Notes under the pieces: model-generated | Told to the model about the DNA's origin: nothing | Seen by the model: the letters and a program-made list of their open reading frames with translations, nothing else | Databases searched by the model: none | Part shown: positions 19,764 through 55,789 of the stretch, piece after piece | Layout of the letters: each line of letters starts with the position of its first letter | Position numbering within the stretch: position 1 is the stretch's first letter | Source: Nocardioides cavernae | Lineage (GTDB): Bacteria; Actinomycetota; Actinomycetes; Propionibacteriales; Nocardioidaceae | Direction of reading: 5' to 3' | Length of the DNA stretch: 64,000 nt | NCBI RefSeq assembly: GCF_016907475.1 | Contig: NZ_JAFBCA010000001.1 | Location: forward strand, 2,108,001-2,172,000 | Made by a program: the position numbers and the translations under genes

Positions 19764-19772
19764 CTGGGCGCA

Positions 19773-19778
19773 CCTCCT
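19773..19778 (-). promoter_or_regulatory. Ribosome binding site that fixes the lyase start
   Basis: AGGAGG on the minus strand lies 9 nt before the GTG at 19763. It shows that the ATG at 19799 is not the start and leaves 56 bp of divergent promoter region free for the palindromes at 19780-19808. Confidence 0.7.
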
Positions 19779-19779
19779 C

Positions 19780-19813: not shown

Positions 19814-19819
19814 CCGCTC

Positions 19820-23751: not shown

Positions 23752-23765
23752 AGGAGAATGAGTTG
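23752..23765 (+). promoter_or_regulatory. Ribosome site, two-codon ORF and TTG start of the nitrilase gene
   Basis: AGGAG (23752-23756) is followed by ATG AGT TGA (23758-23766), and the nitrilase start TTG (23763-23765) overlaps that stop. The family N-terminus LRVAAVQFSV needs the TTG. A start-stop mini-ORF sharing the ribosome site may lower or tune translation. Confidence 0.45.
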
Positions 23766-28916: not shown

Positions 28917-30418
28917 CGGCCACGTCTCGAGACGAGCGCACGGGGAGCCTGGTGCTTCCTGAGGTCGGCCAGCTCGTCGACGGGGAGTGGCACGTCCCCG
29001 ACGAGCGCCTGGACCTCGTGCTGGAGGACCCGTTCCGGGGCGAGAGGCTCGATGCTGCCGTCGCGAGCGACGAGGCATCGGTCGAGCGGGCCGTGCAGGC
29101 CGCGCACGACGCGCACGAGTCGGGTGCGTGGGCCGACCGGCCACCGGTCGCTCGTGCCGAGGTCCTCGACGCGGTTGCCGGGGCGCTCGAGGCCGAGCTG
29201 TCCCGATTGGCGGAGCTCGAGGCGTTCGCCACCGGAGTCCCGGTGCGGCAGACCTCGATCGTGGGAGTCATCGTCCCGGGGGCCTTCCGGCTGGCTGCCG
29301 AGATGCTGCGGGCCGGCATCCTCCTCGAGCACCACGAGGGCCCCGCCGGGAACCCGGTCGAGGTGCACCGGTTGCCGCTGGGCCCGGCCCTGTGCCTGGT
29401 GCCGTGGAACGCCCCGGCCCCGATGGCCGCCCACAAGGTCGCCAGCTCGCTGGCGGCGGGAGCAGCCACGATCCTCAAGCCGAGCGAGTTCGCGCCCTAC
29501 GCGACGACCGAGCTGGCCCGCACCGTGGGCTCCGTGCTCGCCGACGCCGGCCTGCCCGGTGGCGTGTTCCAGCTCGTGCAGGGCGGCCCCGGTGTCGGCG
29601 GCCGCCTCGTCAACGACCAGCGGATCCGGGCGGTGTCCTTCACCGGCGGTCTGGCGGGTGGCCGCGCGATCGCCGCGGCCTGCGCCTCCGACTTCACCGC
29701 CCTCCAGCTCGAGCTCGGCGGCAACAACCCGCTGGTCGTGCTGCCCGACGCCGACCCCGAGGACGCCGCCCGGTCCGCTGTCGACCTGTTGACCACGCTG
29801 AACGGCCAGTGGTGCCGGGCGCTCGGTCGATTGGTGCTGCCCGCTGCCGGCGCACAGGAGATCCTCGAGCTGGTGCTCGCGCGCCTGGCCCTGCTGCAGG
29901 CCGGTGACCCCCTGGACGAGGCGACCGACCTGGGACCGGTCGTCCACTCGGTGCACCTGGCCCGGCTCCGTGCGGCCATCGCCGAACGCACCCGGGCCGG
30001 CGGCGTGGCCCACGCCAGCACGCACGTGCCCGAGGGCCCGGGCCACTTCCTCGCCCCGACGCTGCTCACCGGCGTGCCGGTGGAGCAGTCGGTCCACGAG
30101 ATCTTCGGCCCGGTCGCGACCGTGCACACCTACGACACCGAGGAGCAGGCCCTCGCGGTGGCCAACGGCACCCCCTACGGCCTCGAGGGCTACGTGCTGG
30201 GTGAGGACACCGAGCGGGCGCTCTCCTTCGCGCGCCGGGTGCGCGCCGGGGAGGTCAAGGTCAACGGCTCCTCGATCATGAGCCTGCACCTGATGACGCC
30301 CCGACCTGCCTGGGGACTGTCCGGCCTCGGCGAGGAGGGCACCGTGGAGACCATCCGTGCCTTCACCGGCGCCCGCGTCGTCGGGGTCGAGGGCGGCCAC
30401 GCCCTGCACGCGCGATGA
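28913..30418 (+). CDS. Aldehyde dehydrogenase-family protein 1
   Basis: A 501-residue NAD(P)-dependent dehydrogenase starting at a GTG that overlaps the previous stop. It has the cofactor-loop CLVPWNAPAPMAAHKVASSL and LKPSEFAPYATTELA, the catalytic Glu in LQLELGGNNP (about residue 266) and the catalytic Cys in GQWCRALGRL (about 301). The C-terminal EIFGPVATVHTYDTEEQALA is also standard. The segment GQWCR, lacking the usual Gly-Gln-x-Cys-x-A, is slightly unusual. It is the third gene of the operon beginning at 26275 and would oxidise an aldehyde intermediate, for example from a side chain. Confidence 0.9.
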   Translation: MTATSRDERTGSLVLPEVGQLVDGEWHVPDERLDLVLEDPFRGERLDAAVASDEASVERAVQAAHDAHESGAWADRPPVARAEVLDAVAGALEAELSRLAELEAFATGVPVRQTSIVGVIVPGAFRLAAEMLRAGILLEHHEGPAGNPVEVHRLPLGPALCLVPWNAPAPMAAHKVASSLAAGAATILKPSEFAPYATTELARTVGSVLADAGLPGGVFQLVQGGPGVGGRLVNDQRIRAVSFTGGLAGGRAIAAACASDFTALQLELGGNNPLVVLPDADPEDAARSAVDLLTTLNGQWCRALGRLVLPAAGAQEILELVLARLALLQAGDPLDEATDLGPVVHSVHLARLRAAIAERTRAGGVAHASTHVPEGPGHFLAPTLLTGVPVEQSVHEIFGPVATVHTYDTEEQALAVANGTPYGLEGYVLGEDTERALSFARRVRAGEVKVNGSSIMSLHLMTPRPAWGLSGLGEEGTVETIRAFTGARVVGVEGGHALHAR

Positions 30419-31308
30419 GCACGCCTCCGGAGCGGCTCCGGGTGCTGCTGGCCGGCCCGGACCTGGTGCACCTGCCCGGTGTCTACGACGCCGTCACGGC
30501 GCGGCTCGCCGCCCGGGCCGGGGCCCGCGGTGTCTGCCTCTCCGGCGCGGTCGCCTCGGCGGTCGCGCTGGGTGTGCCGGACCTGGGCTTCGTCAACGGG
30601 TCGGACATCGCGGCCCGCGCGACCCAGGTGACCGGAGTGCTCGACGGGCTGCCGGTGCTCGCCGATGCGGACACCGGCTACGGCAACGCCCTGCAGGCGC
30701 GGCGTACTGCCCAGACCTACGCCGCGGCCGGCCTCGCCGGGCTGCACCTGGAGGACCAGGTAGCCCCCAAGCGCTGCGGCCACCTGGCCGGAAAGGCGGT
30801 CGTCGGCGTCGCCGAGGCCGCGGGTCGGGTCCGGGCCGCGGTCGAGGCCGGCAGCGGCCTGGTGATCGTGGCCCGCACCGACGCGCTCTCCGTGGACGGG
30901 GTCGACGCGGTGGTCGAGCGCTGCCTGGCCTTCGCGGCGGCCGGTGCCGACGCCTTGTTCGTGGAGGGTGCCGGCGCTGACGTGATCGCCCGGGTCGGTG
31001 CCGCGGTCCGGGCCGCGCACGGGCGCGAGGTCCCGTTCGTGCACAACCGCTCGGAGGCCGGCGGCCCGGTCGAGCAGGGCCCCGACGACGACGAGCTGCG
31101 GGCGCTCGGCGTCCGACTGGTCATCCACCCCGTCTCGGGGCTGCTGGCCGCGGCGCGCGCGGCCGCGGCGTCCTACGACGCGATCGTGGCCTCGGGTCAC
31201 GCAGGAGGTACCCCGCGGATGGACTGGACCGAGCTCACCGACCTGCTCGACCTGCCCGGCCAGCTCCGGTTGGAGCACCGCTACGCCGATCCGGTGGACG
31301 CGCGATGA
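30415..31308 (+). CDS. Isocitrate lyase/PEP mutase-superfamily lyase
   Basis: A 297-residue ICL/PEPM enzyme that would split a 2-substituted malate- or citrate-type acid into two acids, or decarboxylate oxaloacetate. The metal and substrate motifs are VLADADTGYGNALQARRTA (about residue 83) and LHLEDQVAPKRCGHLAGKAV (about 112), where the Cys of the KKCGH loop is preserved as PKRCGH. Members include 2-methylisocitrate lyase and 2,3-dimethylmalate lyase. The latter acts on alkylated malates, which is notable because pyrrole-derived maleimides would yield such acids. It is translationally coupled on both sides. Confidence 0.88.
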   Translation: MSTPPERLRVLLAGPDLVHLPGVYDAVTARLAARAGARGVCLSGAVASAVALGVPDLGFVNGSDIAARATQVTGVLDGLPVLADADTGYGNALQARRTAQTYAAAGLAGLHLEDQVAPKRCGHLAGKAVVGVAEAAGRVRAAVEAGSGLVIVARTDALSVDGVDAVVERCLAFAAAGADALFVEGAGADVIARVGAAVRAAHGREVPFVHNRSEAGGPVEQGPDDDELRALGVRLVIHPVSGLLAAARAAAASYDAIVASGHAGGTPRMDWTELTDLLDLPGQLRLEHRYADPVDAR

Positions 31309-32531
31309 CGGCGCCGGGCGGAGCCGGCCGCACCGTGGGTGAGGTCCTGGTCGTCGGAGCCGGCCCGGTCGGACTGACCGCGGCCCTGTGCCTGGCACGC
31401 CGGGGCATCGGGGTGACGGTGCTGGAGGCCGGCGACGGTCTCGCCACCGAGTCCCGCGCCTCGACCTACCACCCGCCCAGCCTGGAGATGCTCGCCGAGC
31501 TCGGCGTGCTCGAGCCGCTGCTCCAGCGCGGCATCATCTCCACCGCCTTCCAGTACCGCGACCGCCGTGGCGGCCCGATCGCCGAGCTCGACCTCGGCGT
31601 CCTGGCCGCGGACACGCCCTTCCCGTTCCGCGTGCAGTGCGAGCAGAGCAAGCTCACTCCGATCCTGCTCGAGCAGCTGCTCGCGTGCCCGTCCGCCTCG
31701 GTCCACTTCGGTCAGCAGGTCGTCGCTGTGGTCGACGACGGACTGACGACGGTGGTCCGCACCGCCGCCGGGCGGGAGTGGCGCGGCGACTGGGTCGTCG
31801 GCGCCGACGGAGCGAGCTCGGCCGTGCGTCGGGCCATCGGGGTCCAGTTCGAGGGCATCACCTACCCCGAGCGCTTCCTCGTGGTCTCGACCACCGAGGA
31901 CCTCACCGCCGCGCTGCCCGGCATCGCCTCGGTCAACTATGTCTTCGACCCCGACGAGTGGCTGGTGCTGCTGCGCACCCCGGAGCACTGGCGGATCCTC
32001 TTCCCGACCGATCCCGACACCGCCGACCACGAGGAGACCGCACCCGCCCGGGTCCAGGCCCGACTGCGCGGAGTGGCTGACCTCGGTCGCCCGTGGGCAC
32101 TGCTGCACGCTTCCCTCTACCGCGTGCACCAGCGGGTCGCCGACCGGTTCCGGGTAGGCCGCACCCTGCTGGTCGGCGACGCCGCCCACGTGAACAACCC
32201 CCTGGGCGGCATGGGCATGAACAGCGGCCTGCACGACGCCGTGCTCGTCGGTGCGGCGCTGGGCGACGTCATCACCGGCACTGGCGTCATCGACGAGCTC
32301 GACGGCGTGCTGGACCGTCGCCGCGAGGTCGCGCTCTCCTACGTCAGGACGGTCACCCACGACAACTGGAAGCAGCTGCGCGAGACCGACGCCGAGGCCC
32401 GGGACGCACACCACGCCTCGCTGCGCCACCTGGCGGCCGACCCCGAGGCGGCGCGCGACTACCTCCTGCGCACCTCGATGATCGACTCGCTGCGCGAGCG
32501 ACGACCCGCAGCTGACGCGGTCGGCGGATGA
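31305..32531 (+). CDS. FAD-dependent monooxygenase (class A, PHBH fold)
   Basis: A 408-residue flavoprotein hydroxylase. The FAD Rossmann motif is VVGAGPVGLTAALCLARRG (about residues 12-30), the DG motif WVVGADGASSAVRRAIG (about 165) and the GD motif TLLVGDAAHVNNPLGGMGMN (about 288). It resembles the 3-(3-hydroxyphenyl)propionate/pentachlorophenol hydroxylase branch but is shorter because it lacks the C-terminal thioredoxin-like domain. It uses NAD(P)H and oxygen to hydroxylate a ring or chain. It stands in the middle of the operon and could act on a linear tetrapyrrole, a monopyrrole or an unrelated aromatic. Confidence 0.9.
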   Translation: MTAPGGAGRTVGEVLVVGAGPVGLTAALCLARRGIGVTVLEAGDGLATESRASTYHPPSLEMLAELGVLEPLLQRGIISTAFQYRDRRGGPIAELDLGVLAADTPFPFRVQCEQSKLTPILLEQLLACPSASVHFGQQVVAVVDDGLTTVVRTAAGREWRGDWVVGADGASSAVRRAIGVQFEGITYPERFLVVSTTEDLTAALPGIASVNYVFDPDEWLVLLRTPEHWRILFPTDPDTADHEETAPARVQARLRGVADLGRPWALLHASLYRVHQRVADRFRVGRTLLVGDAAHVNNPLGGMGMNSGLHDAVLVGAALGDVITGTGVIDELDGVLDRRREVALSYVRTVTHDNWKQLRETDAEARDAHHASLRHLAADPEAARDYLLRTSMIDSLRERRPAADAVGG

Positions 32532-32541: not shown

Positions 32542-33984
32542 ATGAGGCTGGCCCGGGAGAACCCGTCTCGCACCGACGAGTGCGTCGGTGTGGTCGAGAT
32601 CGCCGACGCCGCCGTGGTGGGCGCCGCCGTGGGTCGCGCGAGCGCCGCGCAGCCGGCGTGGGCCCGGGTCCCGGTCCCCGAACGGTCGCGGCTGCTGCAC
32701 GCGGCGGCCGACCGGGTGGCGTCCGAGCAGGACGCGATCGCGGAGCTGATGGCCCGGGAGACCGGCAAGGTGCTGCCCGACTGCCGCGGTGAGGTGGCGT
32801 TCGCCGTCACCGTCCTCCGCTGGGCCGCGGACACGGCCGCCCGGCTGCTCGTCGACCGCGAGGTGGACGACGACCTCGGTCGCCTGCTCCTGCGGCACCG
32901 TCCCTACGGCGTGGTCGCGGCCGTCACGCCCTGGAACGCGCCGGTGGTCCTCGCCGTGCTCAAGGTCGGCCCCGCCCTGGCCACCGGCAACACGGTCGTC
33001 GTGAAGCCCTCCCCGCTGGCGCCGTTCGCCGTGGCCCGGTTCCTCGACCTGGTCGCCGACCGGCTCCCGGACGGCGCGCTCCAGGTCGTCCAGGGCGACG
33101 CGACCACCTCCGCCGCGCTGGTCGGTCATCCCGGCGTCGACCGGGTCGCCTTCACGGGCGGAGAGGCCGCCGGCCGGGCGATCGGGGAGCTGGCCGGCCG
33201 CTCGCTCACCCCGTCCCTGCTCGAGCTGGGTGGCAACGACCCGGCGATCCTGCTCGCCGACGTGGTCCTGGACGACGCAGCGATGGACCGGATGGTGATG
33301 GCCGCCTTCGCCACCAGCGGCCAGGTCTGCATGGCGGTCAAGCGGCTCTACGTCCACCGATCCCGGCACGCCGAGCTGATCGACGGCCTTCGCGCCGCCG
33401 CCGACCGGGTGCTGTGCTGGGGTGACGCGATGCACCCCGGGGTCACCATGGGACCCCTGGTGTCGGCAGCCGCGGCGTGCCGGGTGGGAGACCTGCTCGA
33501 GCGCGCCGTCGGAGGAGGTGCCTATGCCATCCGGATCGGCCGGCAGGACGACGCCACCGACCCCGGCCGGGGCCACTACCTCGCCCCGCACCTGGTGCTC
33601 GGGACGGGGGACGACGACGCGCTGGTCGCCGAGGAGCAGTTCGGCCCGGTGCTGCCCGTGCTCTCCTTCCGCACCGAGGAGGAGGCGCTGACCCGCGCCA
33701 ACTCCGGCGACCTCGGCCTCGGTGCCTCGGTCTGGTCGGCCGACGAGGACCACGCCTTCGACCTGGCGCGCCGACTCGACGCCGGATTCACCTTCGTCAA
33801 CACCCACAACCGCACTGGCCTGGCCCTGCGTGCGCCGTTCGGCGGCGTCAAGCGCTCGGGCTGGGGGCGGGAGTACGGCGACGAGGGGCTGCTCGAGCAC
33901 GTCCAGACCTGCGTCGTGCACGCGCCTGGGCCGTTCAGGCCGGGTGGCACCGGGCTCGGCGCGACGGCGTACCCGACCGGCTGA
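32542..33984 (+). CDS. Aldehyde dehydrogenase-family protein 2
   Basis: A 480-residue dehydrogenase with cofactor motifs TPWNAPVVLAVLKVGPAL and VVKPSPLAPFAVARF, catalytic Glu in LLELGGNDP (about residue 227), catalytic Cys in SGQVCMAVKR (about 262) and the C-terminal FTFVNTHNRTGLALRAPFGG with VKRSGWGREYG. It follows the monooxygenase gene by 10 nt; a more upstream ATG at 32528 leads to an immediate stop, so 32542 is the start. It ends the operon 26275-33984 and is followed by an imperfect hairpin. Succinate-semialdehyde- or benzaldehyde-type substrates are possible. Confidence 0.92.
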   Translation: MRLARENPSRTDECVGVVEIADAAVVGAAVGRASAAQPAWARVPVPERSRLLHAAADRVASEQDAIAELMARETGKVLPDCRGEVAFAVTVLRWAADTAARLLVDREVDDDLGRLLLRHRPYGVVAAVTPWNAPVVLAVLKVGPALATGNTVVVKPSPLAPFAVARFLDLVADRLPDGALQVVQGDATTSAALVGHPGVDRVAFTGGEAAGRAIGELAGRSLTPSLLELGGNDPAILLADVVLDDAAMDRMVMAAFATSGQVCMAVKRLYVHRSRHAELIDGLRAAADRVLCWGDAMHPGVTMGPLVSAAAACRVGDLLERAVGGGAYAIRIGRQDDATDPGRGHYLAPHLVLGTGDDDALVAEEQFGPVLPVLSFRTEEEALTRANSGDLGLGASVWSADEDHAFDLARRLDAGFTFVNTHNRTGLALRAPFGGVKRSGWGREYGDEGLLEHVQTCVVHAPGPFRPGGTGLGATAYPTG

Positions 33985-34139: not shown

Positions 34140-34949
34140 ATGAGCCAGAGCCTGAAGTTCGTCCAGGAGCACCTCGACGAGGCGGCGCCGACCGACGTCT
34201 CGGAGGTGTTCGGGGCCTGGCAGGCGCTGGTCGAGCGGCTCCGGGCGAAGGTGGCGGACCGGTTCGAGCTCGAGCGGGATCCCTCGACCGAGGTGCTCGA
34301 GGACTTCGGCTCCGAGACCGGCCCGCGCGGCCGGGTCCGGGCCTACACCGGGCCCGAGATCGACTGGATGGTGCACTCGCACATGGAGAACGCCGCCCAG
34401 GGCTTCTGCAACGTGCACCTGACGATCTGGCTCGGCCCGCAGGTCAAGGTCCCGCACTTCGGGATGGCGCTCGGCTGCTTCCCGCAGGGCTGGGTCTACC
34501 TCGACTCGGTCCCGCGGAGCTACCTGGTGACCGACACCGAGTCCTTCGACCGCTACTTCGAGCCGGTCAACGAGCGGTGGGAGCAGGTGCGCAACGACCA
34601 CCCTGAGATGGAGCCGTTCGTGAGCCGCAGCGCATTCGTGCGCGCCGGGCTGTCCCCGACCGCCTTCTGCTACATGGCCCCGGCCGACCAGCAGATGACC
34701 GACCTGGTGACCGAGCTCGCCGAGGAGCACCTCGACCGCTGGCTGCGCTGGGTCGACGAGGCCGAGGCGGTCCCCGCGGAGGAGCGTCCCGCGCTCGCAG
34801 CGGCCGACGAGGCGATCCGCCGCAACATCGCCGAGCGCGACCCGGCCAACGTGATGGGCGACCGGTTCTTCGGCCCCGAGACCACCCACCGCCTGGTGCG
34901 GGCCCTGTGGGGCGGCGACCGGGTGCTGGCCCGCCCGCTGGACCGATGA
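34140..34949 (+). CDS. Red chlorophyll catabolite reductase (RCCR)-like protein 1
   Basis: A 269-residue soluble protein that I align over most of its length with plant RCCR, the ferredoxin-dependent bilin reductase-fold enzyme that reduces red chlorophyll catabolite. Shared blocks are VKVPHFGMALG with VYLDSVPRSYLV (residues 103-130; plant form has PxFxxE, then LDLPPRKDLV), PFVSRSAFVRAGLSPTA (159-175; plant PYxSxSLYxRxxxSPTA) and the C-terminal DRFFGPETTHRLVRAL (241-256; plant FGPExAxRV). The ATG is preferred to a TTG one codon earlier. It opens the operon to 41179 and overlaps the chlorophyllase-like gene by 4 nt. The homology is from memory of plant sequences, so the exact substrate is inferred. 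Confidence 0.8.
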   Translation: MSQSLKFVQEHLDEAAPTDVSEVFGAWQALVERLRAKVADRFELERDPSTEVLEDFGSETGPRGRVRAYTGPEIDWMVHSHMENAAQGFCNVHLTIWLGPQVKVPHFGMALGCFPQGWVYLDSVPRSYLVTDTESFDRYFEPVNERWEQVRNDHPEMEPFVSRSAFVRAGLSPTAFCYMAPADQQMTDLVTELAEEHLDRWLRWVDEAEAVPAEERPALAAADEAIRRNIAERDPANVMGDRFFGPETTHRLVRALWGGDRVLARPLDR

Positions 34950-35941
34950 CCGCGCCCGTGCTGGTCCGGGCGCTCCGCAGCGCGGCGCACGTGCCGGGCG
35001 CGGAGGCGCCGTACGACACCGTGCACCTCACCGTGCGCTACCCCGCTCTCGCTCCGCGCGACGACGTCGAGCGGATGAGCGGCCGGCTCGCCGCCGACAC
35101 CGCCGCGGCGCCGTACCCGGTCGTGGTGCTGGTGCCCGGTGTCAACGTGGCCGCGGAGTCCTACCGGTGGCTGGCTGTGCGGCTCGTCGAGGCCGGCTTC
35201 GTCGTCGTCGGCTACGACTGGGTCGGCGAGCTGTTCCCGGGGGAGCACGGGCTGACCCCCGGCGTCGACATCACGGCGTGCGGGCCCGATCACTACGGAG
35301 AACGGCCGACGACCCATGCCCTGCGTCCGGTGCTGGAGGCCGTCAGCCGGCTTGCTGACGCCGGGCCGCTGGCCGGCCTGCTCGACCTCGACTCGGTCGG
35401 CCTGGTCGGCCACTCCGCCGGCGGCACCGTCGCGCTCCAGTCGGCGGCTCCGGCCTGGTTCCCGGAGGTGCGGGCGGTGGTGACCTACGGCGCCCACACG
35501 ATGGCCTCCCAGATGCTGGGCTACCCGCCCAGCACCCTGCTGCCAGCGCCCGTGCAGGCGCCGGTGCTGCTGGTGGCCGGCACCGACGACGGAGTCGTCG
35601 CCGCCAGCGCGATCCGGTACGGCGAGCGGGCCGGCGCCGCCGGCCACGACCCGATCGAGCGCACCTGGGCCGAGGCACTGCCGGCCACCACCGAGGCCTG
35701 GCTGGTGCGGCTCGCCGGAGCCGGACACATGCTGGCCGCGCACCCCGACGACCCGTCGACGGCCCGGGGCTTCCTGGAGACCCCGACCGACGCTGACCAG
35801 GACCGGCTGCGGGACACCTTCGCCCACGTGGTGACGACATTCCTGCACGCCCAGCTGCGCGGCGACACCGCCGCCAAGGGCCGGCTCGAGCACCTCGCCG
35901 AGCACCCCGAACCCGAGATCGCCGACATCCGGCGACGCTAG
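34946..35941 (+). CDS. Chlorophyllase-like alpha/beta hydrolase
   Basis: A 331-residue hydrolase without a signal peptide. The oxyanion region is VVVLVPGVNVAAESYRWLA, the nucleophile elbow VGLVGHSAGGTVAL (Ser about 157), the acid LLVAGTDDGVV (Asp 214 or 215) and the histidine AGAGHMLAAH (His about 261). The layout, with the elbow near residue 155 and GHSxGG, fits the chlorophyllase/dienelactone-type group; plant chlorophyllase has GHSRGG. Chlorophyllase removes phytol from chlorophyll. Its place between an RCCR-like and a PAO-like gene makes a pigment ester a good substrate guess. Cutinase- or PHB-type esterases of similar design cannot be excluded. Confidence 0.75.
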   Translation: MTAPVLVRALRSAAHVPGAEAPYDTVHLTVRYPALAPRDDVERMSGRLAADTAAAPYPVVVLVPGVNVAAESYRWLAVRLVEAGFVVVGYDWVGELFPGEHGLTPGVDITACGPDHYGERPTTHALRPVLEAVSRLADAGPLAGLLDLDSVGLVGHSAGGTVALQSAAPAWFPEVRAVVTYGAHTMASQMLGYPPSTLLPAPVQAPVLLVAGTDDGVVAASAIRYGERAGAAGHDPIERTWAEALPATTEAWLVRLAGAGHMLAAHPDDPSTARGFLETPTDADQDRLRDTFAHVVTTFLHAQLRGDTAAKGRLEHLAEHPEPEIADIRRR

Positions 35942-35955
35942 GAGGACAAACCGCG

Positions 35956-37203
35956 ATGTTCAAGAACTTCTGGTACGGCGTCGAGTTCAGCTCCGACGTC
36001 CAGGTCGGCAGCCCCAAGAAGGTGAAGGTCCTGGGCCAGCAGCTGGTGCTCTACCGCAAGCCCAGCGACGGGAAGGTCGTGGCGATGTCCGACCTGTGCG
36101 TCCACCGGGGCGCAGCGCTCTCGGAGGGCACGGTCAAGGGCGACTGCATCGTGTGCCCCTACCACGGCTGGGAGTACAGCCCCGAGGGTGAGGTGCAGAA
36201 GATCCCGGCGCACCCGGAGAAGGGCATTCCGCGCAAGGCGCGGATCGACGCCTACCCCGTGGTCGAGAAGCACATGATGATCTGGGTTTTCATGGGCGAC
36301 CTGCCCGAGGAGGAGCGTCCGCCGATCCCCGACTGGTCGGCCGTCGACGACACCGAGACGTACCGCGCGGTGACCGGCACCTTCCTCTGGAAGTCCAACT
36401 ACGAGCGGATCCTCGAGAACGGCGTCGACATCGCGCACACGCCGTTCGTGCACGCCGGCTCCTTCGGCAATCCGGACAAGCCTGAGGTGCCCGAGTTCGA
36501 GGTCGAGACCTCGCCGTGGCACTGCAAGGCTTCGGTGAAGCTCAACCCACCGAAGCCGCAGGGGATCTGGGGGAAGATGAACCCGGACAAGGGCGACCTC
36601 CTGAACCGGCCGCTGGTGCCGGTCTCGACGACGTGGTGGCTGCCGAACGCGATCCTCCTCGAGGTCGACCTGCCCATGGGCAAGCTGAAGATCTTCGACG
36701 TCAACATCCCGATCGACGAGGAGACCACCCTCGTCAAGTTCATCGCGCTGCGCACCTTCTTCAAGGGGAAATGGGCCGACAAGGACGCCAGGCGCCGGGT
36801 CTTCAAGGTCCTCAAGCAGGACGAGGCCGTGGTCGACACCGTGCGTCCGGAGCTGCTGCCCTTCGACCTGTCCGACGAGCTGCACGTCAAGAGCGACTAC
36901 AACCAGGTCCTCTACCGCCGCCGCCGCCGCGAGCTGATCGAGGCGGGCTGGTCGGTCGAGGGCAACACGATCGTGGGAGAGGGCACGTCGGCACGGGTGG
37001 AGGCGCGGGTCATCCCCTCGCCGATCCGTCGCGAGGTACCCGAGCTCGCGAGTGCCTGGAACTTCAAGGAGGTCCGCAGCCGGCAGCTGCTGGAGTCCGA
37101 GGCCGCGCGGCGGACGCCGACGTCGACCCCGACGACCCAGGCCACCCCGGACGTCGACGACGACGAGCCGGAGTCCATGCCGACCACGGAGGTCACGGTA
37201 TGA
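35956..37203 (+). CDS. Rieske non-heme iron oxygenase, pheophorbide a oxygenase-like
   Basis: A 415-residue oxygenase. The Rieske cluster ligands are C48-x-H50 (LCVHRGAALSEG) and C67-x2-H70 (VCPYHGWEYS). The mononuclear iron site is NGVDIAHTPFVH with D158, H161 and H166. The pattern and VLGQQLVLYR/IPAHPEKGIPRKARI segments fit the PAO/TIC55/CAO type rather than ring-hydroxylating dioxygenases with small subunits. PAO opens the chlorin ring of pheophorbide a. The C-terminal CxxC of plant PAO is not seen; instead the end is a Thr/Pro/Asp-rich tail (about 385-415). Good ribosome site AGGAGG at 35941-35946. No ferredoxin or reductase gene is nearby. Confidence 0.82.
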   Translation: MFKNFWYGVEFSSDVQVGSPKKVKVLGQQLVLYRKPSDGKVVAMSDLCVHRGAALSEGTVKGDCIVCPYHGWEYSPEGEVQKIPAHPEKGIPRKARIDAYPVVEKHMMIWVFMGDLPEEERPPIPDWSAVDDTETYRAVTGTFLWKSNYERILENGVDIAHTPFVHAGSFGNPDKPEVPEFEVETSPWHCKASVKLNPPKPQGIWGKMNPDKGDLLNRPLVPVSTTWWLPNAILLEVDLPMGKLKIFDVNIPIDEETTLVKFIALRTFFKGKWADKDARRRVFKVLKQDEAVVDTVRPELLPFDLSDELHVKSDYNQVLYRRRRRELIEAGWSVEGNTIVGEGTSARVEARVIPSPIRREVPELASAWNFKEVRSRQLLESEAARRTPTSTPTTQATPDVDDDEPESMPTTEVTV

Positions 37204-37958
37204 GCCGGAGTCTCCCGGGCAGCCTCTGCATCGGCACGCTCGCCGCGATCGTCGAGCGCGCCGGGCTCACCGAGGTCGTCGGCCCCGACGGCGGTCCGTT
37301 CCGCACGCTCAGGTCCCCGATGTCACCCGAGCCGGTGGGCCGGGTGCGGGTCTTCAGCGGCGAGGCCGTGGCCAAGGTCGTCTACGTCGGCCTCGCGGTG
37401 CCGGCGATCGGCCTGGACAGCCACATGGTGTTCGCGTTCGCGCCCGCCGACGTGGCGGTCCCGCACTTCACGTTGGACTCGGTCCAGGGGCAGGGCTCCT
37501 ATGCCTTCCACCTCGACCTGATCCCGCGGGCCGATCTCGCGACCCACCTGACCTACGTCGACTGGGCGCACACCCCGCTCACCGACACCTTCGACGAGGT
37601 CTCCGCGCGCCCGGGCCTGTCCAAGGCGGCGATCGGGCCCCGCCAGTTCGCGATGATGTCGCCCTGGATGCTGGTCCACCGGGCCGACGAGGACGCCTTC
37701 GCCGGCATCGGCGACGCGGTCGGGGAGTATCTCGACCACTGGTTCGGCCTGCTCGGGGCCGGCGTGCCCGCCGAGGTGGCGGCCGACCTCGCAGACACCG
37801 ACCTCGCGGCCCGCGACCACCGGAACCGGGCCAACATCTTCAGCCCCGACGTGGACAAGGTGTGGGCCCAGGTCGAACGGCTGCTCGGCCCTGACGCGAT
37901 GGAGGACGTGCGCGCGCAGCTGCTCGACAACAAGATCGTCTCGGAGGTGCCGGCGTGA
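37200..37958 (+). CDS. RCCR/bilin reductase-fold protein 2
   Basis: A 252-residue paralog of RCCR-1, with the start ATG overlapping the Rieske stop. Matching blocks are VAVPHFTLDSVQGQ with AFHLDLIPRADL (residues 85-113), RQFAMMSPWMLVH (148-160) and RNRANIFSPDVDKVWAQVER (209-228). It is the most divergent of the three: the FVRxxLSPTA block has become FAMMSPWMLV, so substrate or stereochemistry may differ. The fold family uses ferredoxin and no bound cofactor to reduce bilins. A role in reducing a ring-opened chlorophyll product, or another bond of it, is inferred. Confidence 0.7.
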   Translation: MSRSLPGSLCIGTLAAIVERAGLTEVVGPDGGPFRTLRSPMSPEPVGRVRVFSGEAVAKVVYVGLAVPAIGLDSHMVFAFAPADVAVPHFTLDSVQGQGSYAFHLDLIPRADLATHLTYVDWAHTPLTDTFDEVSARPGLSKAAIGPRQFAMMSPWMLVHRADEDAFAGIGDAVGEYLDHWFGLLGAGVPAEVAADLADTDLAARDHRNRANIFSPDVDKVWAQVERLLGPDAMEDVRAQLLDNKIVSEVPA

Positions 37959-38929
37959 CCACCGTGTCCGAGAGTGCCGAGGCCGGCACCACGAGCGAGT
38001 GGCAGCAGCGGATCGCGGGGGAGTGGCACGGCCGTCCGGGACTCTTCGACGCAGTCGGCAACCACGTGGGCTTCGAGCGGGTCGACCGGGCGAGCGTGGT
38101 CGAGGACGGCGTCGCGCGCTACTGGATGAACACCTCGCTGGAGGCCAGCGGGCCGCTGCGCAACAGGTTCGAGCTCGGCGCCCAGTTCGACTTCGGCATC
38201 GTCGACTCCGACGAGAACCGGGTCTACTGCGGACCGGACTTCTACGGCACCGGCCAGCCCTACGGCCTGTTCGTCGACGCCCACTACTACTCTCCGGGCT
38301 GGCAGGCCGACCTGCGCACCTGGAACCAGGTGCTCCCCGACGGCTCGACCCAGGTCTACTCCTCGGTGCTGCACGACGGTTGGGCGGTGTGCGCGGTCTT
38401 CAACGGCATCTACCAGCGCACCTTCGACCACGGGACCAACCCCGAGACGCAGGCGTTCGTCGAGGACTGGATCGCGCTGGAGACCCGGCGGGGCCCGACG
38501 CCCCAGGTGCTCCCGACCAAGGAGAGCGGTGCCTGGCGCGGGTCGCTGTTCGTCAACGCCGCCGACCAGACCGCGCTGGGCGAGGTCGAGGTCGTCATCG
38601 AGCACGAGCCGATCTCCCTGCGCCGGGCCCGTCACCGTGTGACCTGGACGGGTGCGCTCGAGCGCACGTACGCCTTCGAGCGGGTCCGGGACGGCGCGCG
38701 CACCCAGTACGAGGGGCCGGAGGTGTTCGGCAACGCGACGTCGTACGGCCGGGCGCTCTTCACCAGCCAGCACCTCGTCGGGCCGGACGCCCGCGGCGTC
38801 GAGAAGATCAGGGGCCGCGAGGTGCTGATCGATGCCGGGACCCGCGACCTCGCCGTGGTGTGGCAGCTCTTCCGCGGCGACACCACGACGCACTTCGTGC
38901 ACGGCCTGCTCACTTGGGAGGGCGCATGA
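37955..38929 (+). CDS. Unknown beta-rich protein of the pigment operon (possibly calycin-like)
   Basis: A 324-residue soluble protein starting at a GTG that overlaps RCCR-2. I recognise no family with confidence. Predicted beta strands dominate; the opening EWQQRIAGEWHGRPGLFDA and the second half (RARHRVTWTGALERTYAFER) suggest two lipocalin/calycin-like barrels of about 150 residues, as in bilin-binding lyases or DUF3598 proteins. Aromatic residues are frequent (YCGPDFYGTGQPYGLFVDAH). Position between RCCR-2 and the NYC1-like reductase makes it a candidate for pigment binding or for a missing step such as Mg removal. It has no resemblance to STAY-GREEN that I can see. Confidence 0.55.
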   Translation: MTTVSESAEAGTTSEWQQRIAGEWHGRPGLFDAVGNHVGFERVDRASVVEDGVARYWMNTSLEASGPLRNRFELGAQFDFGIVDSDENRVYCGPDFYGTGQPYGLFVDAHYYSPGWQADLRTWNQVLPDGSTQVYSSVLHDGWAVCAVFNGIYQRTFDHGTNPETQAFVEDWIALETRRGPTPQVLPTKESGAWRGSLFVNAADQTALGEVEVVIEHEPISLRRARHRVTWTGALERTYAFERVRDGARTQYEGPEVFGNATSYGRALFTSQHLVGPDARGVEKIRGREVLIDAGTRDLAVVWQLFRGDTTTHFVHGLLTWEGA

Positions 38930-39756
38930 GCACAACGTCCGGTCGCGTCGTCGTCGTCACCGGCGGAACCCGCGGCATCGGCCACGGACTGGCGCGCGAG
39001 CTCCTCGCGCGCGAGTGCCGGGTGGTCATCTGCGGCCGGTCCGCAGCGAGCGTGGACGCCGCCGTCGGTGCCCTCGCCGCGGCCGCGCCGGGTCGGGTGA
39101 GCGGCGTCCCTGCCGACGTCACCGACCGCGCGTCGGTGCAGGCGCTCTGGGACCACGCCGTCGCGACCTTCGGCCGCGTCGACGTGTGGATCAACAACGC
39201 CGGCCTCTCCTCGCCGCGACTGCCCTTGCCAGAGGTGCCGGTCGAGGCGGTGGGTGCCGTGGTCGCGACCAACCTGGTGGGCGCGATGAACGGGTGTGCG
39301 GTGGCCCTGGCCGGCCTCGCGGCTCAGCCGGGCGGCGGCTGGGTCTGGAACATGGAGGGCTTCGGCTCCGGCGGGCAGAAGCAGCCCGGGATGGCCGTGT
39401 ACGGCGCCAGCAAGCGCGCGGTGACCTACCTGACCGAGTCGCTGGTCAAGGAGGCCAAGGACGGACCCGTCAAGGTCGGCTTCCTCTCCCCGGGCATCGT
39501 GGCCACCGACCTCCTGGTCGACGACTACGACGGTCAGCCGGAGGCCTTCGAGAAGGCACGCAAGATCTTCAACATCCTCGGCGACCGGGTCGAGACCGTG
39601 ACCCCCTGGTTGGCGGACCGGTTGCTGGCTGCCGACAGGAACGGAGTCCGGGTCGCGTGGCTCACCACGCCGAAGGCCATGGCTCGTTTCATGACCGCCG
39701 GATTCAGGAAGCGCGACATCTTCGCATCCGGGTCCCCCGAGATCGCGGCGTCCTGA
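38926..39756 (+). CDS. SDR similar to chlorophyll b reductase (NYC1/NOL)
   Basis: A 276-residue short-chain dehydrogenase. Cofactor motif TGGTRGIG (12-19), NNAG (90-93), likely Ser148 in NMEGFGSGG, and Tyr159-x3-Lys163 in AVYGASKR. Several stretches match plant chlorophyll b reductases rather than generic SDRs: VDVWINNAG, WNMEGFGSGGQKQPGMAVYG (plant FNMDGAGSGGSSTPLTAVYG), LVKEAKDGPVKVGFLSPGIV, RKIFNILGDRVETV and WLTTPKAMARFMTA (plant LTPPRILLAI). NYC1/NOL reduce the 7-formyl of chlorophyll b. ATGA overlap with the preceding gene. The plant comparison is from memory; specificity is inferred. Confidence 0.8.
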   Translation: MSTTSGRVVVVTGGTRGIGHGLARELLARECRVVICGRSAASVDAAVGALAAAAPGRVSGVPADVTDRASVQALWDHAVATFGRVDVWINNAGLSSPRLPLPEVPVEAVGAVVATNLVGAMNGCAVALAGLAAQPGGGWVWNMEGFGSGGQKQPGMAVYGASKRAVTYLTESLVKEAKDGPVKVGFLSPGIVATDLLVDDYDGQPEAFEKARKIFNILGDRVETVTPWLADRLLAADRNGVRVAWLTTPKAMARFMTAGFRKRDIFASGSPEIAAS

Positions 39757-40439
39757 TGGCGATCGATCCCTGCACCGAGTACGGCCTGGCGCTGGCCGCC
39801 GAGGACTTCGTCCCGGTGCTGCTGGCCGGGGCAGGCACGGTCGTGCTGGCGCTGGCTGCCGGCCGGTCGGTGCCGCAGGTCCGGGTGCCCGCGCTCCTCG
39901 CCGGCGGTCTGGTGACGCTCGGCGGGCTGGCCAAGGCGGTGTGGAAGCTGCTGGTCGCCGCCGAGCCGTGCCGCAACATCGAGGTGCTGGAGCAGCTGCT
40001 CTTCCCGTGCCTGGCCTTCGGCTTCGCCGGGATCGTGTGGGCGCTGGTCGGCGTACGTCGCGGTCGGCCCGCACCGTGGCCGCCGTACCTCGTGCTGCCG
40101 GTGCTCGGCGCCGTGGCCGCCCTGGCCGTCGGGGACACCTGGCCGCTGTTGATCGCCGCCGCCATCGGCGCGGTGACCGTCGGCGTGCTCGGGATCCTGC
40201 TGGCCCGACGACGGCGCGACGCGTTCGGGGTGGTGCTGTTCGGCGTCTACATCGTCGGCACGCTCGTGCTGCCGCCGCTGGCCGGACGACCCGACCAGTC
40301 CGAGGCGCTGCAGTGGATCGAGCAGCTCACCAACTCCGTCGTCCAGCTCTGCTTCCTCCTCGGCGCGATCGGCCTGCTCCGCGCGGCCGCGCCGTCCACG
40401 TCCGTGCCCGACCACACATCCGCAGGAGTGCCCCGATGA
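39756..40439 (+). CDS. Multi-pass membrane protein of the pigment operon
   Basis: A 227-residue protein with about seven hydrophobic segments and no recognised domain. The N-terminus begins MAIDPCTEYGLALAAEDFVP, so Cys and Asp/Glu residues lie close to the first membrane segment; another Cys pair is in AAEPCRNIEVLEQLLFPCLA between segments 2 and 3. The start overlaps the SDR stop as TGATG. It may be a transporter or a membrane anchor for the pathway. It has no relation I can see to the ECF or MFS proteins in this window. Confidence 0.6.
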   Translation: MAIDPCTEYGLALAAEDFVPVLLAGAGTVVLALAAGRSVPQVRVPALLAGGLVTLGGLAKAVWKLLVAAEPCRNIEVLEQLLFPCLAFGFAGIVWALVGVRRGRPAPWPPYLVLPVLGAVAALAVGDTWPLLIAAAIGAVTVGVLGILLARRRRDAFGVVLFGVYIVGTLVLPPLAGRPDQSEALQWIEQLTNSVVQLCFLLGAIGLLRAAAPSTSVPDHTSAGVPR

Positions 40440-41179
40440 CCGACCGCCTCGGCTGGCGCCGCAAGTTCGGCGTGATCGCCCCGAGCACCAACACGATCGT
40501 GCAGCCCGAGTTCGCGATGATGTCGGTCCCCGGCGTCACCTCGCACTTCTCGCGGATCCACATCCGCGACCAGAACATGGACTCCGACGACGGCATGGAG
40601 CGACTGCTCGAGCAGATCCGCGAAGAGATCGGGGGCGCGTGCGAGCGGGTGCTCACCTGCGAGCCCGACTACATGGTGATGGGGATGAGCGCCGAGACCT
40701 TCTGGGACGGCGTGGAGGGCAACCGCGCCTTCAAGAAGCAGATCACCGGCATCACCGGGCTCGACGTCGCGACCGGTGCCGAGGCCTGCGAGCGCGCGCT
40801 GCACCTCTTCGGTGCCCGCAAGATCGGCGTGGTCACGCCGTACCAGCCGATCGGTGACGAGAACGTCGTGAAGTTCTTCGGCGAGCTCGGCTTCGAGGTC
40901 GCCTCCATCAAGGGACTGAAGTGCCCGACGGCCGTCTCCATCGCCCACGTGAGCGAGGCGGAGCTGCGGGACGCGATCTTCGAGGTCAACGAGTCCGACG
41001 TGGACGCGATCGTCCAGTGCGGCACCAACCTGTGCATGACCACGCTCGCCGACGAGGCCGAGCGTTGGCTGGACAAGCCGGTGATCGCGATCAACGCCGC
41101 CACGTGGTGGATGGCGCTGCGCGACAACGGGATCGAGGACCGGCTGCAGGGCCTCGGCACGCTCCTGCGCGAGCACTGA
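40436..41179 (+). CDS. Asp/Glu racemase-superfamily enzyme (arylmalonate decarboxylase/maleate isomerase-like)
   Basis: A 247-residue enzyme. It starts with the family motif FGVIAPSTNTIVQPEF. Maleate isomerases and racemases use two cysteines. Here the second is present in IVQCGTNLCMTT (C195-G196), but the first position reads VMGMSAETFW, with Gly83 and Ser85, exactly as in arylmalonate decarboxylase (MGTS). Tyr136 in VTPYQPIGDEN corresponds to the decarboxylase active-site Tyr. It should therefore decarboxylate a malonate-type acid, or isomerise by a changed mechanism. In plants the 13-2-carboxyl of chlorophyll breakdown products is a beta-keto acid. Last gene of the operon, followed by a hairpin. 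Confidence 0.75.
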   Translation: MTDRLGWRRKFGVIAPSTNTIVQPEFAMMSVPGVTSHFSRIHIRDQNMDSDDGMERLLEQIREEIGGACERVLTCEPDYMVMGMSAETFWDGVEGNRAFKKQITGITGLDVATGAEACERALHLFGARKIGVVTPYQPIGDENVVKFFGELGFEVASIKGLKCPTAVSIAHVSEAELRDAIFEVNESDVDAIVQCGTNLCMTTLADEAERWLDKPVIAINAATWWMALRDNGIEDRLQGLGTLLREH

Positions 41180-41405: not shown

Positions 41406-42119
41406 TCACGCACCTCCCGTCGTCGGAGCTCGGTCGACGAGGTGTCCCGAGACGATCAACCGCTCGCTCGAGCCCCAGCGGGGATGGCAGGTGACGAGCG
41501 TGAGCAGGGCCTTCCTCGGTGTCGCCCCGGGTCGGCCGGGCACCGGCTCGAGCACCTCGGTGGCGGTTGGGGTCACGAGCTCGCTGCGGTCGACGACGTA
41601 GGTGAAGGTCGCGGCGAGGGTCTGCACCGTCACCTCGTCGCCCGGGACGAGTGCGTCCAGGTGTGCGAACGGCTCACCGTTGGTGGCTCGGTGGCCGGCG
41701 ACCGCGAAGTTGCCGACCTCACCCGGCATCGCGGTCCCGGGGAAGTGGCCGGGACCCAGGGCCAGCTGGTCGGTCTCGACCCCCTCGACGATGACCCGGG
41801 ACCAGCCCTGGCCGAGCCGGGGGATGGAGAGCAGCCCGAGCCCGCCGCCGGTGGGTGGCGGGGCGAGCGGGGCCGTGGCAACGGGGGTCCTGCTGCGGCC
41901 GCGGGCGGCGGGCCGGGCGCGCGGAGCAGGGGTGGACGGGGAGGTCCGGGACGCCTGCGCGACCCGTGCCTCGAAGGTCTCCCGGAGCGTGCTCTGGGCC
42001 GCCGCGTTCTGCACGTCGCTCCAGACCACGAGGTAGGCCGCGAAGGCCACCACGACCAGGCCAAGGGTGAGCAGCAGCTCGGCGGTGGTCCGGACCACTA
42101 CTCGCACGATCGCGCTCAC
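41406..42119 (-). CDS. Sortase (class E/F type)
   Basis: A 237-residue membrane-anchored transpeptidase that links LPxTG-type proteins to the cell wall. It has a membrane helix at about residues 13-32, a Pro/Arg/Thr-rich linker (60-92) and the catalytic domain with H143 (VAGHRATNG), C211 (TLVTCHPRW) and R220 (SERLIVSG). The start is GTG 42119. Class E enzymes usually prefer LAxTG, yet the two apparent substrates here carry LPHTG and LPQTG, so it may belong to class F or have relaxed specificity. It is divergent from a WxL-like secreted protein across an AT-rich island. Confidence 0.92.
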   Translation of the reverse strand: MSAIVRVVVRTTAELLLTLGLVVVAFAAYLVVWSDVQNAAAQSTLRETFEARVAQASRTSPSTPAPRARPAARGRSRTPVATAPLAPPPTGGGLGLLSIPRLGQGWSRVIVEGVETDQLALGPGHFPGTAMPGEVGNFAVAGHRATNGEPFAHLDALVPGDEVTVQTLAATFTYVVDRSELVTPTATEVLEPVPGRPGATPRKALLTLVTCHPRWGSSERLIVSGHLVDRAPTTGGA

Positions 42120-45140: not shown

Positions 45141-46408
45141 GGCGCCTCCTCACGGCGTTGCTCGCTGCACTCCTGGCGCTCCCTCCCGCAGCGGCCTTCG
45201 CTGACGACGATGTGACTGTGGAGCGCACGGAGTCGCTCACGGCCACTGTGGTGCCGGGTTCCGCGGCCCCGGGCACCACGGTTGAGGTGGTCGGGTCGGG
45301 GTGGCCGGCCTTCACCCAGGTGCAGGCGGTGCTCTGCGGTGACCTTGCGATCGGGGGCTCGAGCACCTGCGACCAGTCAGGAGCAGTCCTGGCGAGCGCC
45401 ACCGAGAACGGCATGATCGAGCTCGACCTCCTGGTGGGCCGGCCGCCCGCGCCCTGCCCCTGCGTGGTGCGCGTTGCGTCCTACCAGGGATCGACGGTGG
45501 CGGTGGATGCACCCTTCACGGTCATCGGGCACCCCGTCGGAACCCCGCCGGAACCGGTCGTCCCTGCGCCCCGGCTCGAGGTGACAGAGGTCCGCCTGGA
45601 GGGGAGCGGCGGCCCGGCCGCACTCTTCGGGGCTGCGCCCGAGCGCCGTGTCGTCCTCACCTTGCAGAACACCGGCACGGCGCCGGCGGTCAACCCGCAG
45701 GTGCGCCTCGGCGTCGGGAAGAGCGCGTCCACCGAGCCGACCTCGACGACCACGACCGACCTGACCATCGAGCCGCTGCAGAGCGTCGAGGTGTCGGTCA
45801 CCGTCGGCCTCCCGATCGCCGCCTTCGGTGACTACCGGGTCGTCGCGCAGGTCGGGGACGACCCGGCGACCGCCGCCAGCACCACCTGGACCGCCTACCC
45901 CTGGGGTCTGATCGCGCTCAACGTGCTCGGTCTGGTGCTGCTCGTCTGGGGGATCCGGCGCCGGATGACCGCCCGTCGTCGTGCCGACGCGGCAGCCCAA
46001 GCTGCGCGGCACCGTGCCACGGCCGAGGGCTACGCCCTGCCCGACGTGGTGTACGTCGAAGCGCTCGGCGGCTTCCTGGTCAGCCCGCGGGCTGCGAGCC
46101 GGTCCAGGGTGCTGAGGAAGGTCGACGGCCGGCTCGAGGCGCGCGACCTGGCGGCGCTGCTCGCTGGTGGCACCCGCCTGCCGGACGCGCCCTCTGACGA
46201 CACTGGCGCAGCGGTCGTCGACCTGGCGGCCGTCGAGCGGTGGCTGGCCAGGCGCGGTGGCCGTGGTCGCAGTCTGATCGACGAGCTGCTCGATCCTCCG
46301 CCTGCGCAGGTCCGCGACGGCGCCCGCGTGTCTGCCGATGCCGTGGTTGACATCGAGGCGGCCGATCGATGGCTGGAGCGACGCGATCGGCAGAAAGGTT
46401 CCGCCTAG
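45137..46408 (+). CDS. Membrane-anchored surface protein with neocarzinostatin/Ig-like domain and long cytoplasmic tail
   Basis: A 423-residue protein starting at GTG 45137 (overlap with the previous stop). A signal peptide (to about residue 23) is followed by a beta domain (about 30-135) with PGTTVEVVGSGWPAFTQVQA and Cys pairs (VLCGD, STCDQ, PCPCVV) recalling the neocarzinostatin-type fold. A second Ig-like domain (about 150-250) and a membrane helix (PWGLIALNVLGLVLLVWGI) lead to a charged cytoplasmic tail of about 150 residues. The tail has repeated acid-rich W-L motifs (VERWLARRG, ADRWLERRD). It could connect surface binding to the cell interior. Function not known. Confidence 0.65.
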   Translation: MRRLLTALLAALLALPPAAAFADDDVTVERTESLTATVVPGSAAPGTTVEVVGSGWPAFTQVQAVLCGDLAIGGSSTCDQSGAVLASATENGMIELDLLVGRPPAPCPCVVRVASYQGSTVAVDAPFTVIGHPVGTPPEPVVPAPRLEVTEVRLEGSGGPAALFGAAPERRVVLTLQNTGTAPAVNPQVRLGVGKSASTEPTSTTTTDLTIEPLQSVEVSVTVGLPIAAFGDYRVVAQVGDDPATAASTTWTAYPWGLIALNVLGLVLLVWGIRRRMTARRRADAAAQAARHRATAEGYALPDVVYVEALGGFLVSPRAASRSRVLRKVDGRLEARDLAALLAGGTRLPDAPSDDTGAAVVDLAAVERWLARRGGRGRSLIDELLDPPPAQVRDGARVSADAVVDIEAADRWLERRDRQKGSA

Positions 46409-46413
46409 AACTC

Positions 46414-46429
46414 GATATCGTATATTGTC
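46414..46429. promoter_or_regulatory. AT-rich operator/promoter island before the ABC importer
   Basis: GATATCGTATATTGTC lies 25 nt before the start of the binding-protein gene. It is the best copy of the island family: GATATCGTA also at 23735, GATAT-T-GTATATT at 26241, and ATCGTATAT (inverse) at 19805. TATATT is a possible -10 box. Confidence 0.65.
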
Positions 46430-46454
46430 GCAACGAACAGAGGACGGAGACCCG

Positions 46455-55468: not shown

Positions 55469-55789
55469 GTGACGGTCGTGGTGGTGAGCCAGGCGTGGAC
55501 CCGCGAGGGCGAGGAGCACGCGCGTGTGTACATCGAGCTGTCGGGGGAGTTCGGACGCTTCTTCCGCGACCATCCGGGCTATCGCGGCCGGCAGCTGGTC
55601 CGCGGTGTGGAGGACCCGACGCACTTCACCCACCTGCGCTTCTTCGACTCGGTCGACAGCTACGAGGAGTGCACCCGCGCCGCGGGCTACCAGGACCACC
55701 TGATGGCCATGTACAAGCACCTGCGGCCCTACGACTCCTATCCGCGCGAGTACCTCGAGGTCGTGCTCAACGAACCGGGCCACGCATGA
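55469..55789 (+). CDS. ABM-fold monooxygenase-type protein
   Basis: A 106-residue ferredoxin-like alpha/beta barrel protein (antibiotic biosynthesis monooxygenase family). It starts at GTG 55469 behind GAGAGGA. The strand-helix pattern TVVVVSQAWTREGEEHARVY, GYRGRQLVRGVEDPTHFTHL and FFDSVDSYEECTR is typical. The same small fold is used by IsdG/MhuD heme-degrading enzymes and by cofactor-free quinone-forming oxygenases. The IsdG catalytic Asn-Trp-His triad cannot be identified with confidence. In this context oxygenation of a tetrapyrrole or its fragment is possible. ATGA overlap with the next gene. Confidence 0.75.
   Translation: MTVVVVSQAWTREGEEHARVYIELSGEFGRFFRDHPGYRGRQLVRGVEDPTHFTHLRFFDSVDSYEECTRAAGYQDHLMAMYKHLRPYDSYPREYLEVVLNEPGHA

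Follow-up and report, generated by a model that had tools for sequence, protein, structure and literature searches.

In plants, chlorophyll is broken down by the PAO/phyllobilin pathway, which includes NYC1/NOL, PAO and RCCR (red chlorophyll catabolite reductase). NYC1 reduces the C7 formyl group of b-type chlorophyll in plants, and Glu154 and Asp291 of Arabidopsis RCCR have a catalytic role. The locus described here lies in a window of 64,000 nucleotides from Nocardioides cavernae (the whole stretch of DNA that was analysed) and belongs to a gene island which, like the plant pathway, pairs RCCR-family proteins and NYC1-clade short-chain dehydrogenases (SDRs) with a Rieske oxygenase. Unlike the plant pathway, the island is bacterial and operonic, its Rieske protein is of the VanA type and not of the PaO type, and it has no chlorophyllase; it also has three RCCR paralogs, an altered RCCR1 active site and attached coenzyme A (CoA)-dependent catabolic genes. 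The ferredoxin-dependent bilin reductases and pre-PcyA clusters of non-photosynthetic bacteria (PMC10151467) share their superfamily and fold with the RCCR-family proteins and also occur in heterotrophic hosts. In that paper's passages on them, the pre-1 and pre-3 clusters are mostly accompanied by heme oxygenase, iron-sulfur protein, V4R and globin genes, whereas the island has Rieske, NYC1-type SDR and calycin genes instead, and the main text contains no occurrence of 'actinobact'. STAY-GREEN Mg-dechelatase homologs, according to PMC8531759, are likewise a plant chlorophyll-breakdown enzyme type found in non-photosynthetic bacteria; the island differs in that another enzyme is concerned, and PF12638, the STAY-GREEN family, had no match in the host genome, the control genomes being silent too. 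A literature search of partial coverage found no bacterial gene set for dismantling the chlorophyll ring or for consuming senescent-leaf remains and no paper naming such a cluster, in agreement with the original prediction for this DNA, which knew of no described bacterial chlorophyll catabolic operon.

The core of the locus is a unit of eight genes, RCCR1-HYD-RIE-RCCR2-U8-SDR1-MEM-RAC, all on the + strand between positions 34140 and 41179 (Table 1). Six of its seven junctions are overlaps (five of 4 bases, one of 1 base) and the other is a 14-base gap, so that the tight coupling first read from the DNA is borne out. Judged from sequence and model comparisons, this unit would be the conserved core of an actinobacterial island that feeds on chlorophyll or on open-chain products of its breakdown, importing and degrading them; this is the most likely of the readings considered, and we give it about an even chance of being right. 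The presence of NYC1-type SDRs favours chlorophyll as the substrate, while the uptake-type transporter and the CoA enzymes favour a catabolic role.

RCCR1 matches the RCCR family PF06405 with 60.0 bits for a cut-off of 24.9, and its best match in the PDB is Arabidopsis RCCR (E 4e-13), as expected for the RCCR homolog proposed in the original prediction. Single RCCR1 proteins are already named 'red chlorophyll catabolite reductase' in some sources. RCCR2 had been proposed as a second RCCR-fold protein, and it proved to be one despite a PF06405 score under the cut-off (14.6 bits): its AlphaFold2 (AF2) model (pLDDT 95.8), made from 49 of the 64 kept alignment rows and the window's own, has Arabidopsis RCCR as its best Foldseek match (E 7e-11), and its profile is homologous to that of RCCR1 (HHalign E 1.7e-14). 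Near-identical rows were dropped from all alignments. RCCR3 is a third family member, encoded outside the unit; a third full RCCR copy was not found outside Nocardioidaceae in the 20 genomes tested. All 63 RCCR1 rows have Ala where Arabidopsis RCCR has Glu154 and Asp where it has Asp291, the residue numbering being deduced from the offset between the sequences. Glu154 is likewise absent at the aligned position of RCCR3, and RCCR2 carries Asp there in 65/65 rows of the HHalign alignment.

SDR1 is 34% identical to rice NYC1 over 272 residues (140 bits). Plant NYC1 records, many of them bearing the name chlorophyll(ide) b reductase NYC1, were taken from 120 listed matches of a total of 3118, among the rest of which there may be nearer bacterial kin of NYC1. 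A profile of 12 such records, run on the host genome, in which 45 places match the SDR family PF00106, gave 155.7 bits for SDR1, 143.9 for SDR2 and 46.7 for the next SDR. A second scoring placed SDR1 at 163 bits and SDR2 at 149, the best of the 28 other host SDR loci taken at 65, and 64 SDR1 orthologs between 100 and 175. In a phylogenetic tree, seven NYC1 rows (of the 12 records), nine SDR1 rows (including 8 of the 64 orthologs) and nine SDR2 rows (including eight orthologs) form one clade with support of 100/99, outside of which fall 22 control SDR rows (from 22 of the 28 control loci, two giving the same frame, hence 21 distinct); the scope of this clade is set by controls that all come from the host genome and by the omission of NOL records, and a nearer bacterial group is possible. 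The catalytic Tyr159 and Lys163 of SDR1 are present in all 65 rows and Ser148 in 63 of them, and the best 120 relatives of SDR1, where named, bear generic SDR names only. Of the NYC1/NOL signatures ascribed earlier to SDR1, the NYC1 type is thus established by profile and clade, NOL records not being included.

RCCR and NYC1-type SDRs also occur together across genomes. Among 391 genomes of the host order, 19, from 3 of 40 genera, match PF06405, each of them twice at a spacing of about 18 to 27 kb; phylum-wide the family is rare (3/396 genomes, the window's own included). At E <=1e-25, with the best 4 candidates scored per genome, the NYC1 profile was matched in 22 of the 391 genomes: all 19 RCCR-bearing ones, of which 18 have a pair of copies, and 3 of the 372 others. 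These three (L221, L222 and L223) belong to another family and have a single, weaker NYC1-type SDR each. Fisher's test for this association gives 1.6e-29, uncorrected for kinship. Among the 18 genomes with a pair of SDR copies, eight carry the second on a different contig or well away from the cluster, and the six of these eight remote places that were read hold no other specific island genes, a generic ABC ATPase match occurring in two. Since SDR2 can thus lie away from the island and its genes, the co-occurrence is not due to linkage alone.

The remaining enzymes of the unit depart further from the plant route. The C-terminal domain of RIE is VanA_C (81.5 bits), PF08417, the PaO domain, is not matched at E 0.1, and no gene of the whole host genome matches PF08417 at E 0.001, control genomes being positive in 2 of 14 cases; with VanA-type proteins as its PDB matches, RIE is not the PAO-type oxygenase it had been taken for. 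Its C48, H50, C67, H70, D158, H161 and H166 are each invariant in 52 of 52 rows, the third iron ligand not having been located. The label of chlorophyllase-like hydrolase also had to be given up for HYD, which scores 19.4 bits with PF07224 against a cut-off of 26 and is not among the three genome-wide PF07224 places reported at E 0.1; its GHSAG motif is kept in 63 of 63 rows. ABH6, whose PDB matches include hydroxynitrile lyases and salicylic-acid-binding protein 2, with a 'probable pheophorbidase' further down the list, appears from these matches to be a better esterase candidate than HYD. No enzyme for Mg removal or phytol removal and no electron donor for the oxygenase or the reductases was identified among the scanned genes.

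U8 matches no Pfam family and has no credible PDB match by sequence. Its model, made from 51 of 62 kept rows and the window's own, nevertheless resembles calycin proteins: the whole matches BFA1/DUF3598, and its single barrels match nitrobindin, CpeS and CpeT. As for RAC, the first catalytic-Cys place, located by manual reading of the alignment, is Met84 and the second is Cys195, both in 48 of 48 rows (17 of the 47 kept rows and the window's own were used in the RAC alignment). Maleate isomerase has two catalytic cysteines. A role of RAC as a maleate isomerase on the dialkylmaleates derived from pyrrole rings is ruled out by the missing first cysteine, and that step was therefore dropped; a related route may run through the mesaconyl-CoA-hydratase-like and lyase genes.

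Four successive plant activities had been read into the operon. NYC1-type b-to-a conversion and RCCR-type reduction withstand the family tests and the co-occurrence analysis, while the PaO and chlorophyllase labels fail. The proposal that the operon mirrors the plant pathway holds for RCCR and the NYC1-type SDR and breaks down at the other oxygenase, the several RCCR paralogs, the CoA-dependent tail and the Glu154 to Ala change in RCCR1. The likeness to the plant route is thus a partial one: two of the steps have other enzymes, and a catabolic tail is attached.

The unit is widely conserved. A scan of genome contigs with the RCCR1 alignment confirmed 132 relatives, and the counts that follow rest on the best 80 of these loci, which span 20 genera by record title, among them Mumia, Nocardioides, Actinomadura, Streptomyces, Nocardia, Micromonospora, Actinoplanes and Nonomuraea. 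In 73 of the 80 the genes run RCCR1-HYD-RIE-RCCR2-U8-SDR1 and RAC shares their strand; MEM is in place as well in 52, and CNH is the nearest + strand island gene 5' of RCCR1 in 66. By a stricter count of presence, RIE and RCCR2 are found in 79 loci each, SDR1, U8 and RAC in 78, HYD and CNH in 77 and MEM in 56; SDR2 and RCCR3 are left out of this count, since their matches in it are cross-hits to paralogs. One locus (L137) has RCCR1 and none of the other seven genes. Two distant actinobacterial genomes have a Rieske gene and U8 near RCCR1, and one of them RCCR2 too, along with CNH and a lyase; no SDR1 match was found within the 20 kb read in either. One of the two (L153, 4615-8348) also has genes for hydantoinase A and B beside RCCR1-Rieske-U8, whose products could open lactam or imide rings. 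A search of 72,556 plasmid records with RCCR1 by tblastn gave no match. Recurring open reading frames of the 80 loci that are not island genes are, by eye, mostly antisense frames. Three of them were scanned with Pfam and gave a Dabb-domain protein, an IclR regulator and one sub-threshold match. The Dabb-domain protein (L105, 7971-8255) lies near the unit in 24 of the 80 loci, in 14 genera, and is not in the window's unit; in other genera the IclR regulator, too, is found repeatedly close to the unit.

The unit belongs to an island of about 57 kb and 51 genes, whose first gene is HMG-CoA-lyase-like (18867) and whose last encodes an AMP ligase beyond the window end (75419, counted on from the window). 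This extent, RCCR3, SDR2 and the calycin fold of U8 were all absent from the original prediction. Synteny was examined in 13 of the 18 other RCCR-positive genomes, all of which hold counterparts of RCCR1, HYD, RIE, RCCR2, U8, SDR1, RAC, RCCR3 and KPR. In the seven of these 13 genomes that were read with longer flanks, 37 to 51 of the 51 genes were found, 30 of them in all seven, and the missing ones are mostly surface genes. G371 is without the module from mesaconyl-CoA hydratase to acyl-CoA dehydrogenase and G175 without that from amidohydrolase to CoA-transferase; SDR2 lies elsewhere in the genome in G112 and G220. By Pfam, the island sits between ilvC and serA in the window, G175 and G222 and beside ilvC in G367, while G112, G220, G248 and G371 show no ilvC/serA neighbours in the parts read and have rearranged modules. 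The island encodes an uptake-type ABC transporter, an MFS carrier, a GntR regulator, two aldehyde dehydrogenases, several flavoenzymes, amide-type hydrolases, three CoA-transferases, a mesaconyl-CoA-hydratase-like protein, PrpD-type proteins, a thiolase, lyases and a CoA ligase.

If the island does feed on chlorophyll, a chlorophyll-derived pigment would be taken up by the cell, SDR1 and SDR2 would reduce a formyl group on it, and the Rieske oxygenase would open or oxygenate its ring. RCCR1, RCCR2 and, where present, RCCR3 would reduce the opened tetrapyrrole, U8 might shield the intermediate or pass it on, and the hydrolases and the decarboxylase-like RAC would trim ester and carboxyl groups. 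Flavoenzymes, aldehyde dehydrogenases and the carbon-nitrogen hydrolase could then cut the pigment to single-ring pieces, to be fed into central metabolism by the CoA-transferases, the mesaconyl-CoA-hydratase-like protein and the lyases. A fuller version, which we offer tentatively and would sooner expect to fail than to hold, is that of a chlorophyll supercluster of about fifty genes with which actinobacteria bind, import, open, reduce and fully mineralise chlorophyll a/b or plant phyllobilins from dead leaves, its RCCR and NYC1-type genes being bacterial kin of the plant degreening enzymes, with parts of an ancient pathway of pigment disposal common to plants and bacteria. Chlorophyll is made and lost each year in very large amounts, and the island supplies candidate genes for steps of its breakdown, in strains some of which have culture-collection numbers. 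It also sets beside plant NYC1 a bacterial group that is tied by its neighbourhood to RCCR relatives, which bears on the origin of the plant degreening enzymes.

The main rival substrate to chlorophyll is heme-derived bilins. The island would then break down open-chain bilins originating in heme or in cyanobacterial antennae, and its NYC1-type SDRs would take some other aldehyde or alcohol of the pathway as substrate, a possibility that we consider doubtful and still the strongest of the alternatives. RCCR1 lies at the edge of the bilin reductase family PF05996, just above the cut-off (31.7 against 31 bits), yet this is far under its score with PF06405, and RCCR3 is not among the PF05996 matches at E 0.01, so that both proteins stand closer to RCCR than to bilin reductases. 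The calycin fold of U8 is shared by bilin lyases and heme binders, its single-barrel matches including nitrobindin (heme) and CpeS/CpeT (bilin lyases). Bilins need neither Mg removal nor dephytylation, and the want of an identified enzyme for either, with STAY-GREEN controls that were themselves silent, is in keeping with such a substrate. Against it, canonical heme oxygenase (PF01126) is absent from the host genome while its control was positive, and two NYC1-type SDRs co-occur with RCCR; we know of no role for such SDRs in any bilin route.

It is unlikely, too, that what the island degrades is some cyclic or aromatic compound other than a tetrapyrrole, the RCCR-fold proteins and the calycin barrel having been recruited to a new substrate. 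Several observations would fit this and weigh against chlorophyll: the VanA-type oxygenase has solved relatives whose substrates are smaller ring compounds, RCCR1 and RCCR3 no longer have the residue corresponding to Glu154, and most of the remaining island genes belong to generic catabolic families. Moreover, the RCCR fold is also found in two subunits of a chloroplast motor complex, so the solved relatives are not all tetrapyrrole binders. Nevertheless, Foldseek gave 45 matches for RCCR2 at E <=0.001, and all except these two subunits are RCCR or bilin reductases; the grouping of three RCCR paralogs accompanied by NYC1-type SDRs also argues for a tetrapyrrole. Finally, a role of the unit in making a natural product or cofactor from a tetrapyrrole, which might be suggested by the occurrence of the unit in Streptomyces, Micromonospora, Actinoplanes and others, these three being genera rich in natural products, is very improbable given the catabolic make-up of the island (GntR regulator, uptake-type ABC transporter, CoA ligase, thiolase, CoA-transferases and lyases) and the IclR regulator recurring near the unit in other genera.

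Table 1. Genes of the core unit and of the surrounding island, in window numbering.
Feature	Position	Strand	Basis or remark
RCCR1, red chlorophyll catabolite reductase family	34140..34949	+	PF06405 60 bits; PF05996 31.7 bits
HYD, alpha/beta hydrolase (dienelactone/PET-hydrolase-like), GHSAG motif	34946..35941	+	weak PDB match to polyester hydrolases
RIE, Rieske oxygenase with VanA_C domain	35956..37203	+	Pfam; PDB matches VanA-type
RCCR2, diverged RCCR/bilin-reductase fold protein	37200..37958	+	AF2 model, fold search, HHalign to RCCR1
U8, double calycin barrel by model, possible tetrapyrrole carrier	37955..38929	+	AF2 model pLDDT 90.2
SDR1, NYC1-type short-chain dehydrogenase	38926..39756	+	rice NYC1 identity, NYC1 profile, tree clade
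MEM, small protein, membrane by eye	39756..40439	+	in 56/80 loci
RAC, arylmalonate decarboxylase / maleate isomerase superfamily	40436..41179	+	PF17645 64.5 bits
HMG-CoA-lyase-like	18867..19799	-	island left end; flank comparison
CoA-transferase family III	19787..21037	+
Isochorismatase-domain hydrolase	20932..21684	+	start uncertain
Cupin-like protein	21681..22301	+	weak match
MFS transporter	22317..23687	-
CNH, carbon-nitrogen hydrolase	23763..25391	+
GntR/FCD regulator	25398..26105	-
Flavin reductase domain with HMGL-like domain	26275..27597	+
Acyl-CoA-dehydrogenase-fold protein, probable flavin monooxygenase	27594..28916	+	role inferred
Aldehyde dehydrogenase 1	28913..30418	+
PEP mutase / isocitrate lyase superfamily protein	30415..31308	+
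FAD-binding monooxygenase family protein	31305..32531	+
Aldehyde dehydrogenase 2	32542..33984	+
Sortase	41406..42119	-
Probable substrate-binding lipoprotein	46338..47852	+	by eye; start uncertain; no Pfam family
ABC transporter ATPase	47866..48609	+	13/13 genomes
Branched-chain-type ABC permease and ATPase	48606..51473	+	13/13 genomes
Neocarzinostatin-family protein	51528..52229	+	PF00960 54.6 bits; 13/13 genomes by loose match
KPR, NAD-binding protein	53727..54587	-	overlaps RCCR3 by 4 bases; 13/13 genomes
RCCR3, third RCCR family gene	54584..55411	-	PF06405 56.7 bits (cut-off 24.9); PDB Arabidopsis RCCR E 7e-11
ABM-like barrel protein, small	55469..55789	+	PF03992 22.0 bits, just under cut-off 23.1
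ABH6, methylesterase/hydroxynitrile-lyase-like hydrolase	55738..56508	+	PDB matches
Mesaconyl-CoA-hydratase-like protein	56493..57026	+	PF19315 79.4 bits
Luciferase-like monooxygenase family	57030..58076	+
CoA-transferase family III	58073..59281	+
MmgE/PrpD protein	59248..60618	+
RidA-family (endoribonuclease L-PSP) protein	61080..61466	+
MaoC-like dehydratase	61463..61930	+
Thiolase family	62304..63461	+
ChsH2-like OB-fold protein	63458..63880	+	last listed island gene before window end
SDR2, second NYC1-type SDR	65888-66691		past window end, same island

Some of the other island genes deserve mention. Between 41406 and 46408 lie a sortase and surface proteins, one of them with a WxL-interacting domain, which perhaps form a cell-surface binding device; the sortase is present in all seven genomes read with longer flanks, the surface genes in one or two. 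Proteins of the neocarzinostatin family bind hydrophobic chromophores, and a member is also found near the unit in 14 of the 80 loci, in 6 genera, by strict count. The ABM family, to which the small barrel protein beside RCCR3 may belong, includes non-canonical heme-degrading enzymes. The flavin reductase-HMGL fusion (26275-27597) gives two separate matches in L093, suggesting that two genes take its place there.

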